This document shows positions 13,949 through 18,128 of a stretch of DNA of 32,619 nt, piece by piece. The position numbers and the translations under genes are program-made. Where the stretch lies: contig JAGLLA010000004.1 of NCBI GenBank assembly GCA_023140775.1, forward strand, positions 1-32,619, written 5' to 3'. The notes under the pieces are model-generated. The model was not told the DNA's origin. It saw only the letters and a program-made list of their open reading frames with translations, and made no database searches. Source of the stretch: Candidatus Parcubacteria bacterium. GTDB lineage: Bacteria > Patescibacteriota > Minisyncoccia > JAHIHE01 > JAGLIN01. The first letter of the stretch is position 1; each line of letters begins with the position of its first letter.

Positions 13949-15667
13949 ATGCAACACTTAGTTCATGTAAACAATAATGATTCAGATAAAAATACTAAGG
14001 AGTTAAAGGAAAAAGTCCAAGAAGAAACGATTCAAAAGCTACATCATAAAAGCGAAGAAGAGAGAGCAAATGCCATGGCAAACAAATATCACCTTCCTTA
14101 TGTAGACCTAAGTTTGATTCCGATAGATCCGGAAATGGTAAGCATCGTTCCAAAAGAAACAGCCCAAAATGCTAGTTTAGCAGTAATTTATAAGGTTGGA
14201 AAGAAATTAAAAATTGCAGTAAAAGATCCTGAGAATTATGAGACAAATAAAGTTCTTGAAAAGCTCAAGCAGGAAGATAAAATGAATTATACCTTAGTGG
14301 TAGTGTCAAGTGATAGTCTCCGAAAGGCTTGGTTAACTTATGATCTTTCAACAGTAACCAAAAGATTTGAAGATCAGGGTGTTTCTTTGAAAAAAGAAGA
14401 TTTGACTGAATTTGAAAAAGGAATACACAACATCATAGATCTGAAAAAAAGAATTTCTGAAATTAACACAACTGAAATATTTAATATAATTATGGCCGGG
14501 GCCATAAAAACGAAATCAAGTGATGTGCACATTGAGCCTAATCTCGATTATATACGACTAAGATATAGAGTAGATGGTGTACTTCAGGATATAGTCAATC
14601 TTCCCATCAAAGTAAGCAGAACAATAACATCAAGAGTAAAAATGCTTTCTAAAATGAAATTAAACGTAACTGACATTCCGCAAGATGGTCATTTTAGCAT
14701 AGACTTAGAGAATAAATCAATAAATATTAGAGCTTCTATTCTTCCCAGTACTTACGGCGAAAGTATTGTACTGAGAATTCTGTCCGAAGACGCAACAGGA
14801 TTAAAGCTAGACGAACTGGGATTCAATCAGTTCTACATGGAAAAGGTTGAAGAACAATTACTCAAGCCGACTGGAATGCTCTTGGTTACAGGTCCAACTG
14901 GAAGTGGAAAAACAACAACTTTATATTCATTTATTCGCAGAGTTAACCAACCGAATATAAAAATTATTACGCTTGAAAATCCAGTTGAGTATAGACTTGA
15001 AGGAATCTCGCAAACAGAGATCCATGCAGACACTGGTTTAACATTTGCTCAAGGATTAAAAGCTGTGGTGAGACAAGATCCAGATGTAATCATGGTAGGA
15101 GAAGTCAGAGACTCTGAAACTGCTGAGATATCAATTCAAGCTGCCTTGACAGGACATTCAGTGTTTTCAACATTGCATACCAATAATGCCGCTGGAGCCA
15201 TACCAAGACTTTTGCACCTTAAGGTTAATCCGACATTGATTTCTCCGTCAATCAACGCAATCATTGCACAAAGATTAGTGAGAACTTTATGCGAACATTG
15301 CAAAGAAGAATACACACCCGCTCAGGAAACAATAGATAAGATCAAGGAAATATTGTCAAAAATCCCAAGAAACAACAGCATGGAAATACCAAGAGATGTA
15401 AAAACAATATTCAGAAGTTGTGGATGTTCTAAGTGTAATTTCATTGGATACAAAGGACGAATAGGAATTTACGAAATGTTTATATTAACCCAAAATATAG
15501 AGAAAATTATTCTTCACAACACATCCGCATCAGAAGTAATGGAAAAAGCAAGAGAAGATGGAATGATCACAATACAGGAGGATGGAATCTTAAAAGCGAT
15601 TGAAGGAATAACATCTCTTGAAGAGATCAGAAGAGTTACTGGAGAAATATTTTCAAATAAATTTTAA
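13949..15667 (+). CDS. Type IV pilus / type II secretion assembly ATPase (PilB/GspE family)
   Basis: Walker A GPTGSGKTTTLYSF, Asp/Walker B boxes VRQDPDVIMVGEVRDSETAEIS, His box TGHSVFSTLHTNNAAGAIPRL, tetracysteine CEHC...CGCSKC. Confidence 0.95.
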   Translation: MQHLVHVNNNDSDKNTKELKEKVQEETIQKLHHKSEEERANAMANKYHLPYVDLSLIPIDPEMVSIVPKETAQNASLAVIYKVGKKLKIAVKDPENYETNKVLEKLKQEDKMNYTLVVVSSDSLRKAWLTYDLSTVTKRFEDQGVSLKKEDLTEFEKGIHNIIDLKKRISEINTTEIFNIIMAGAIKTKSSDVHIEPNLDYIRLRYRVDGVLQDIVNLPIKVSRTITSRVKMLSKMKLNVTDIPQDGHFSIDLENKSINIRASILPSTYGESIVLRILSEDATGLKLDELGFNQFYMEKVEEQLLKPTGMLLVTGPTGSGKTTTLYSFIRRVNQPNIKIITLENPVEYRLEGISQTEIHADTGLTFAQGLKAVVRQDPDVIMVGEVRDSETAEISIQAALTGHSVFSTLHTNNAAGAIPRLLHLKVNPTLISPSINAIIAQRLVRTLCEHCKEEYTPAQETIDKIKEILSKIPRNNSMEIPRDVKTIFRSCGCSKCNFIGYKGRIGIYEMFILTQNIEKIILHNTSASEVMEKAREDGMITIQEDGILKAIEGITSLEEIRRVTGEIFSNKF

Positions 15668-15777: not shown

Positions 15778-16707
15778 TCATCTATCTTTCATCCTTTCAA
15801 GAGAACTTTCAAGCCAAAAAGATATTTCCGCATTATGACCATCCAGATCAAATGCTTTTTGAAAATTATGAGCAGACATTTCATAGTCCCCTAATATAAA
15901 ACTAGATTTTCCCAAAATTATCCAGGCATCTCTATAGTCGATATCATCTTCTCCGTTTTCCTTTAGTTTGTTCATCGCCAAATATGGCTGATTGATCTTG
16001 TTGTACAAATCAGCGATTAAAATATTTTTATATTTATTATTTTTTATATTATAATAATTCTCGGAAGATTCTTTTAATGTTTTTAGCTCAAATTCATAAT
16101 CATCACTCTTTTTCTCGATCTGTTGAAAAAAAGTATTATATTCAGCGCTATCATAAAAATCAAGTAGTCCTAAATAATACAACACTTCTGAATCATTATT
16201 ATCTTGAAGCAACTGAGAAAAAATATTATAAGCCTTTTCATTCTCGCCTTTTGCTATAAAACTTTTTCCTACTTTAATTCTGACTTGTTTCGAATTTTTT
16301 ATTTGATTCGACTTATTATAATAAGTCATCGCATCAACTATATTTCTCTTTGCATAATAGATATCTCCCATAATTTCATAAGCAATATGATCACTCTTTT
16401 TCTCATTGATTGCTCTGTATATTTCCTGCTCAGCCTTTTCCAGATTACCATGCTCATAAAAGATTGATGCTCTATTGATTCTAGCTTCATACGCAATACT
16501 CCGATTTCCATCTATAGTCAGTGCATACTTATAATTTTTTAGTGCCTCATCATAAATTTTATTATTATAATTTTTATTTCCCAGAAATAAATATGAATTT
16601 GAGACTGTAACTTGCCATTTATAAAATATAATGAGCATCAAAAAAACAAATAAAAGGATAAAAATCATTTTCTTTCTTTCCCTGCTAACATCTATTTTGA
16701 AAACCAT
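15778..16707 (-). CDS. TPR-repeat protein with N-terminal transmembrane anchor
   Basis: N-terminal hydrophobic helix, then repeated TPR-like units (YDEALKNYKYALTIDGN, LEKAEQEIYRAINEK, YEMSAHNFQKAFDLDGHNAE). Confidence 0.85.
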   Translation of the reverse strand: MVFKIDVSRERKKMIFILLFVFLMLIIFYKWQVTVSNSYLFLGNKNYNNKIYDEALKNYKYALTIDGNRSIAYEARINRASIFYEHGNLEKAEQEIYRAINEKKSDHIAYEIMGDIYYAKRNIVDAMTYYNKSNQIKNSKQVRIKVGKSFIAKGENEKAYNIFSQLLQDNNDSEVLYYLGLLDFYDSAEYNTFFQQIEKKSDDYEFELKTLKESSENYYNIKNNKYKNILIADLYNKINQPYLAMNKLKENGEDDIDYRDAWIILGKSSFILGDYEMSAHNFQKAFDLDGHNAEISFWLESSLERMKDR

Positions 16708-16754: not shown

Positions 16755-16946
16755 AAAAAAAGAAAGCATTCAATAAATTGCAGACAGCTAGATCCTCAGC
16801 TTATAAAAGGATGAGGGTGGAGAAATTTCCGAGGAATAGACCAGAAAATTCCAATAGAGGAACCCAAACTACCCAGGTCTGGGATAATATCCCCAACTGT
16901 CTACAAATTACTAAATACTTTTAAATGTCGAACTTTTCTAACTTGA
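16755..16946 (-). ncRNA. Unannotated structured RNA, 6S-RNA-like architecture (family not established)
   Basis: Arms 16763-16787 and 16897-16921 form a 25-position stem (20 WC, 4 G.U on the minus strand, 1 mismatch); internal hairpins GGGAT-att-ATCCC, GGAAT...ATTCC, ATCCT...AGGAT; minus-strand TTGACA-N17-TACACT promoter; T-run at the 3' end. Confidence 0.65.
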
Positions 16947-16952
16947 CTGATA

Positions 16953-16981
16953 AGTGTAGCAGAAATGACAAATCTTGTCAA
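16953..16981 (-). promoter_or_regulatory. Sigma70-type promoter for the candidate ncRNA
   Basis: Minus strand TTGACA (16981-16976), 17-nt spacer, TACACT (16958-16953). Confidence 0.7.
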
Positions 16982-17002
16982 GAGCTGTGAATCTGTTATA
17001 AT
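16975..17002 (+). promoter_or_regulatory. Sigma70-type promoter for ruvB
   Basis: TTGTCA (16975-16980), 16-nt spacer, TATAAT (16997-17002). Confidence 0.6.
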
Positions 17003-17114: not shown

Positions 17115-18128
17115 ATGGAAATTACTGATTCAAAAGAAATAATCGAAGATGAGAGCCTAGATTTATCTCTTAGACCAAAATTTCTCAAGGAATTTATTGG
17201 CCAAGACAAAATCAAAAAAAATATTGACATCCTTATCAAGGCAGCTCAAAAAAGAAATGAAACAATCGAGCATATTTTGTTCCATGGTTCAAGCGGACTT
17301 GGGAAGACAACGTTATCATATTTGATTGCCAATGAAATGAACAAAAATATCAGAATTACCTCTGGACCAGCAATCGAAAAAGTTGGTGATCTAGGAGCGA
17401 TCTTAACAAACATGGAAGACGGCGATATTCTGTTCATTGATGAGATTCATAGATTAAATAAATTGATTGAAGAAGTCTTATATCCTGCAATGGAAGATTA
17501 TGCCCTGGACATTATTGTTGGCAAGGGACCATCGGCCAGAACTATTCGACTAGATCTTCCACAATTTACCCTTATTGGAGCAACAACCAGGATTGACCTA
17601 ATTTCCTCTCCCCTTCTGAATCGTTTTGGAATTTCACAAAGACTTGATTTTTACAATAATGATGACATAAAACAAATTGTAAAAAGATCTGGTAAAATTT
17701 TGGACATTGCCATAGATTCAGATGGGGCTGATAAGATTGCAAAAAGCTCAAGGCAAACACCAAGAATTGCAAATCGTCTTTTAAAAAGGGTTCGTGATTT
17801 TGCTCAAGTCAAAGGAGATGGAATTATCAACGAAGGCATTGTCGGTCAAACTTTTGATCACCTCGAAATTGACAATTACGGACTAGAACATACTGACAGG
17901 AAAATTCTTGAAATAATTATAGAAAAATTTAATGGAGGTCCAGTTGGCGTTTCAACGATTGCAGCTAGCCTAAGTGAACAAGAAGACACAATTGAATATG
18001 TGTATGAGCCATATCTCCTGCAACTAGGTTTTCTTCAAAGGACACCCAGAGGAAGAAAGGTGACGAAACTTGCTTACAATCATCTCGGTTTTGATTTTCC
18101 AAAAGATAATCAAAACACTTTAATATAA
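17115..18128 (+). CDS. ruvB: Holliday junction DNA helicase RuvB
   Basis: [26 protein letters not shown], Walker [57 protein letters not shown]. Confidence 0.97.

Follow-up and report, generated by a model that had tools for sequence, protein, structure and literature searches.

The window analyzed here, a 32,619-nucleotide stretch of DNA from a Candidatus Parcubacteria bacterium, very probably contains a free-standing gene for a structured noncoding RNA that is present across most of the class to which the organism belongs. Our preferred reading of this gene, to which we give a probability of about 0.7 from sequence comparison, is that its product is a class-wide, predicted abundant and trans-acting RNA that would form the RNA part of a putative ribonucleoprotein.

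Promoter, fold, and parts of the RNA

The gene, its promoter elements, and its structural parts are as follows.

16755 to 16946, minus strand: noncoding RNA gene, placed by its fold z score, by homologues in the family and the class, and by covariation
16976 to 16981, minus strand: -35 element TTGACA; the exact promoter pattern recurs in 85 of 97 homologues
16953 to 16958, minus strand: -10 element TACACT with an upstream TG; its position is conserved in the family alignment
16974 to 16982, both strands: palindrome CTTGTCAAG, holding the shared -35 elements of the RNA (minus) and ruvB (plus)
16897 to 16921, minus strand: 5' arm of the closing stem, AAAGTATTTAGTAATTTGTAGACAG; two-sided changes in all 26 modelled pairs over 99 matches
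16763 to 16787, minus strand: 3' arm of the closing stem, CTGTCTGCAATTTATTGAATGCTTT, placed by pairing and covariation and followed by the U-rich tail (16762-16755)
16879 to 16894, minus strand: 5' strand of the basal half of the central arm, GGGGATATTATCCCAG, with one bulged base and one pyrimidine mismatch
16869 to 16874, minus strand: 5' strand of the upper half of the central arm, GGGTAG (GGAUAG in the class consensus)
16825 to 16844, minus strand: invariant family core CTGGTCTATTCCTCGGAAAT on the 3' strand of the central arm, from 13 family genomes
16794 to 16816, minus strand: 3' hairpin CCTCATCCTTTTATAAGCTGAGG, placed by fold and consensus

Folded as minus-strand RNA, the stretch 16946-16755 reached -59.9 kcal/mol, compared with -40.3 ± 3.9 for 200 dinucleotide shuffles (z = -5.05), none of which folded as well (0/200); the plus-strand fold of the same stretch was unremarkable (-36.1, z = -0.99). 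Folding of the minus strand is beyond chance and strand specific. An earlier, sequence-only reading had reported that 16763-16787 and 16897-16921 are complementary arms and had argued for a minus-strand RNA from pairs that become G.U on that strand. The coordinates proved to be exact; in minus-strand RNA, 20 of the 25 positions are Watson-Crick pairs, 4 are G.U, and the remaining one is a U.U mismatch, and the difference in fold between the two strands upholds the strand assignment. The terminal U run that it reported is present as the U-rich tail at 16762-16755.

The same reading had placed a TTGACA-N17-TACACT promoter just upstream, and this was confirmed on the minus strand, with TTGACA at 16981-16976 separated by 17 nt from TACACT at 16958-16953. 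The position of the promoter puts the transcript start at about 16946, giving a predicted transcript of about 192 nt whose U-rich tail ends at 16755; size and promoter fit a sigma-70-driven transcript of about 160 to 200 nt, as predicted from sequence. Among the homologues, 85 of 97 members have an exact TTGACA-N16/17-TAnnnT no more than 110 nt upstream, a pattern that occurred in 0.14% of random stretches drawn from these loci and in 0.35% of shuffled upstream regions. The RNA of genome G005 keeps its own promoter, TTGACA-N17-TAGTAT, though its upstream neighbor is not ruvB. The -10 element and the closing stem are separated by about 1 to 80 nt, and some members have a 5' extension, often with a hairpin of its own; at three loci where this distance is long (L032, L034, and L035), the extra hairpin constitutes a variable appended domain. 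The closing stem is often followed by a long T run, but in 44 of 97 members this run is short (2 to 4), and intrinsic termination is therefore not uniform among the members. Taken together, the promoter and tail evidence indicates that the RNA is its own transcription unit.

In the window, the promoters of the RNA and of ruvB stand back to back (16974-17002). The ruvB promoter on the plus strand consists of TTGTCA at 16975-16980 and TATAAT at 16997-17002 (11/12 consensus matches), and because its -35 element shares one palindrome with that of the RNA, the two genes may compete for polymerase.

The architecture across the class comprises the closing stem, an optional 5' hairpin, the central arm, the 3' hairpin, and the U-rich tail; in the model, the arms meet a closing stem of about 25 bp at a tight three- or four-way junction. 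In members that lack the 5' hairpin, the 5' side of this junction measures 0 to 7 nt, that is, it is closed. The closing stem reads CUGUAGGCAA...UUGCCUACAG in most class matches and AUCCCUGGCUG...CAGCCAGGGAU in others. In the family alignment, the outer closing stem varies with compensation, and the segments of low variation are CAATTTGTAGACAG, CTGGTCTATTCCTCGGAAAT, and CTGTCTACAAATTG.

Two of the inner hairpins proposed for this RNA fared differently. The 3' hairpin (16816-16794) holds up as a conserved element, being present in nearly all class members and absent from some members in other classes. The GGGAT-att-ATCCC hairpin belongs to the fold of the single sequence and is not conserved structure: in homologues, the GGGAT-side strand pairs with CUCGGAAAUUUCUCC (16833-16819), the consensus partner of the strand at 16879-16894, to make a single long central arm. 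The first G-C pair of the upper half of this arm is invariant (97/97), and nearly all positions of the core are invariant across the 13 of 13 family genomes, with CUAYUCCUCGGA as the class consensus of the core over 99 class matches. The arm bulges one base on its 5' strand and one on its 3' strand, the latter a pyrimidine in 91 of 97 members, and its predicted conserved bulged core can be written UCUUAG / CUAYUCCUCGGA; GGGAUAUUAUCUUAG..GGAUAGUUUGGUUCCGACUGAACUAUUCCUCGGAAUUAUCCU is an example from the class matches. Between families, the length of the central arm ranges from 49 to 142 nt, and its apical part varies.

Homologues and covariation

BLASTN with the 192 bases gave one strong match in 13 of the 14 genomes of the window's family and no match outside that family. 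The sole family genome without a match, G008 (family f1), is 94% complete, and either a contig gap or a true loss would account for it. A covariance model built from the window's family only (R1) matched 65 of 286 class genomes at E ≤ 0.1, and a second model, built from 27 sequences (R2), matched 197 of 286 at E ≤ 0.001, together with some genomes from other classes. About 30% of class genomes had no R2 match; since the search scored few candidates per genome, and since a third model (R3) found some that R2 had missed, part of this shortfall reflects missed detection. In an even draw of 380 genomes from the phylum, R3 matched 28, of which 21 belonged to the window's class. When 84,980 bacterial and archaeal species were scanned for an exact-letter pattern, 18 stretches matched, all from genomes named as Yanofskybacteria, Azambacteria, Portnoybacteria, Parcubacteria, Paceibacterota, or Patescibacteria. 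Going by these names, we take the class in which the RNA occurs to be Paceibacteria (Parcubacteria); other classes of Patescibacteria hold a few likely relatives of the RNA. There is strong support for the suggestion of a new, lineage-specific ncRNA encoded on the minus strand, the lineage being the whole class and not one species.

One model match, L063 (genome G090), proved to be a long perfect hairpin with no relation to this RNA and was discarded; L046, a partial match, was excluded from the alignments. The closing stem is nearly symmetric. Echoes of the model on the reverse strand were removed by threshold, with one left in the 99-row alignment.

Covariation, which had been put forward as the check on homologues, is evident. 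In an alignment of 99 model-aligned matches (98 loci and the one echo), which was fitted to the structure, 89.5% of cells were paired and 56 of 61 pairs showed two-sided change; the covariation score was 0.596, compared with 0.232 ± 0.005 for shuffled data and 0.104 to 0.181 when partners were slid by 1 to 3 columns. The arms of the closing stem covary alike in a structure-blind MAFFT alignment of 27 sequences, where one closing-stem pair, for example, is AU in 10 sequences, CG in 8, UG in 4, and UA in 2.

Known RNA families and neighboring genes

At gathering and permissive thresholds, Rfam gave no match in the RNA, either in the window or at 37 homologous loci. The leading specific rival, which we consider unlikely, is a 6S-like action, in which the RNA would sequester housekeeping RNA polymerase as an abundant decoy, being a functional analogue of 6S RNA or a homologue diverged beyond recognition. 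In 6S RNA, long stems flank a large central bubble that is single-stranded. The new RNA resembles 6S RNA (SsrS; RF00013) in its length class, its long terminal stem, its free-standing single-copy gene, and its near-consensus, sigma-70-type promoter, and elimination points the same way, with RNase P RNA found in 18 of 18 relatives, SRP absent, and a recognized 6S RNA missing (0/14 family genomes and 0/37 relatives over the cutoff; 4 of 14 control genomes scored over it). The 6S model itself, however, gave no hit at E ≤ 10, neither in the window nor in the RNA at 17 homologous loci, and none at E ≤ 1 in the RNA at 20 further loci. The new RNA also has a closed multiway junction and not an open bubble, members without the 5' hairpin having only those 0 to 7 nt on the 5' side, and its most conserved letters sit in the terminal arm. 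Membership of the 6S family, which the sequence-only reading had suggested and had proposed to check with Rfam/Infernal, is not borne out.

Genome G025, binned in this class, carries the new RNA on contig C141 and, separately, a below-cutoff but orderly 6S match of 33.4 bits (L015 1501-1649, on contig C147). That match is either a genuine 6S RNA in the class or contamination of a bin that is 85% complete; unless the contig is contamination, the presence of both in one genome also weighs against 6S-like action.

Signal recognition particle (SRP) RNA was rejected as an identity. Like bacterial SRP RNA (RF00169 and RF01854), the new RNA is a structured RNA of housekeeping type; unlike it, the new RNA has no Rfam match and, by inspection, no GGAA-loop / AGCAG helix 8, and the region of the window gave no match to the SRP RNA covariance models. 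RF00169 was found in 0 of 192 Patescibacteria genomes, RF01854 in 0 of 18 relatives, and the Ffh M domain (PF02978) in 0 of 37 relatives, with 14 of 14 controls positive. This agrees with published work in which ffh and ffs are missing from Parcubacteria (PMC4508563) and SRP subunits from many CPR (PMC8080830). Because Ffh is absent too and the loss is published, the missing SRP RNA is a loss, not the new RNA under another form. The 192 genomes of the phylum without small-type SRP RNA (RF00169) and the 37 relatives without the Ffh M domain in themselves confirm, over a broad sample, that SRP has been lost as published. RNase P RNA was ruled out as well, as RF00010 had no match in the window and RNase P RNA was found at a separate locus in all 18 of 18 relatives.

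OLE and raiA RNA are large orphan classes of bacterial ncRNA that emerged from comparative genomics. The new RNA is like them in having been found by covariation, in being broad in its lineage, and in having a function that cannot be read from sequence; unlike them, it has no Rfam match, is smaller, and has another architecture.

The genes around the RNA in the window are as follows.

17115 to 18128, plus strand: ruvB, divergent from the RNA (Pfam RuvB_N, 3e-74)
13949 to 15667, plus strand: type II/IV secretion ATPase (pilB type), convergent with the RNA (Pfam T2SSE, 7e-121)
15778 to 16707, minus strand: TPR-repeat gene between the RNA and pilB, in that position only in the window's family

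The covariance models are blind to neighboring genes, and in 83 of 98 loci the RNA has ruvB on its upstream side, divergent, and a T2SSE/PilB-type ATPase on its downstream side, convergent. Within the locus DNA examined, a further 6 loci keep ruvB and 8 keep pilB, bringing the divergent ruvB upstream to 89 of 98 and the convergent pilB to 91 of 98. Seven further R3 matches within the class but outside the training set (G040, G059, G123, G142, G197, G215, and G249) occupy the same ruvB/pilB position. Members in other classes adjoin ruvB in some genomes (G333, G435, G402, G307, G367, and G291) and have no ruvB neighbor in the locus DNA examined in others (G590, G380, G458, G628, and G567), so the RNA is not tied to one neighbor. 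At L013 and L048, the upstream ruvB is replaced and the RNA is still present. The TPR gene had no match in class loci outside the window's family (f1); it diverges fast, with 25 to 52% identity to members outside the genus.

This recurrent position next to pilB, with a median of 21 nt from the end of the RNA match to the end of the pilB alignment, raises the possibility that the RNA regulates type IV pili, controlling pilB by antisense overlap of transcripts or in trans. We think this improbable: in most loci the RNA stops short of the pilB coding sequence, in the window's family the two are kept apart by a TPR gene of about 1 kb, several members in other classes are not near pilB, and shared ancestry alone can give a conserved gene order. 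A cis-acting leader or attenuator of the TPR gene, ruvB, or pilB, although suggested by the TPR gene about 48 nt downstream on the same strand in the window, by the near-constant presence of ruvB, and by a U-rich tail that could serve attenuation, is very improbable, since what lies downstream is mostly pilB, which runs toward the RNA on the other strand in 91 of 98 loci, leaving no gene to lead into in most genomes, no conserved same-strand gene directly downstream, as a leader or riboswitch would have, was found at these loci, and the RNA persists where ruvB is replaced and, in several other-class genomes, away from ruvB. The TPR leader, named earlier as the main alternative, is refuted as a general explanation, the TPR gene being specific to one family.

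Predicted role in Parcubacteria

Under our preferred reading of a free-standing, trans-acting RNA, the consensus promoter would drive strong transcription, and the predicted abundance of the RNA follows from that promoter. The molecule would then serve, in trans, as the RNA component of a ribonucleoprotein, with a putative protein partner bound at the conserved central arm. The conserved letters belong to the central arm and the inner closing stem, where they fall within helices or at bulges and avoid open loops, which argues for recognition by a protein over base pairing with mRNA; as the apical part of the arm varies too, a protein-binding scaffold is favored over an antisense RNA. The lineage in which this would take place has lost SRP and has no recognized 6S RNA. 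Broad presence in the class, a fixed locus, and a clear consensus promoter suggest an important function, and we lean toward the view that this is an abundant class of housekeeping RNA, ancestral to Paceibacteria and perhaps to all Patescibacteria, whose ribonucleoprotein would have no counterpart in other bacteria.

We found no description of this RNA in the open-access literature searched, and relative to Rfam 15 it is a new class. Patescibacteria (CPR) make up a very considerable part of bacterial diversity. Since their genomes are reduced and most of them have not been cultured, what is known of their core machinery comes chiefly from homology, and an RNA without homologues is invisible to annotation. 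Parcubacteria probably make a major RNA that has so far gone undescribed, and the family, which now has a covariance model, predicted ends, and a neighborhood, can be searched for in existing metatranscriptomes.
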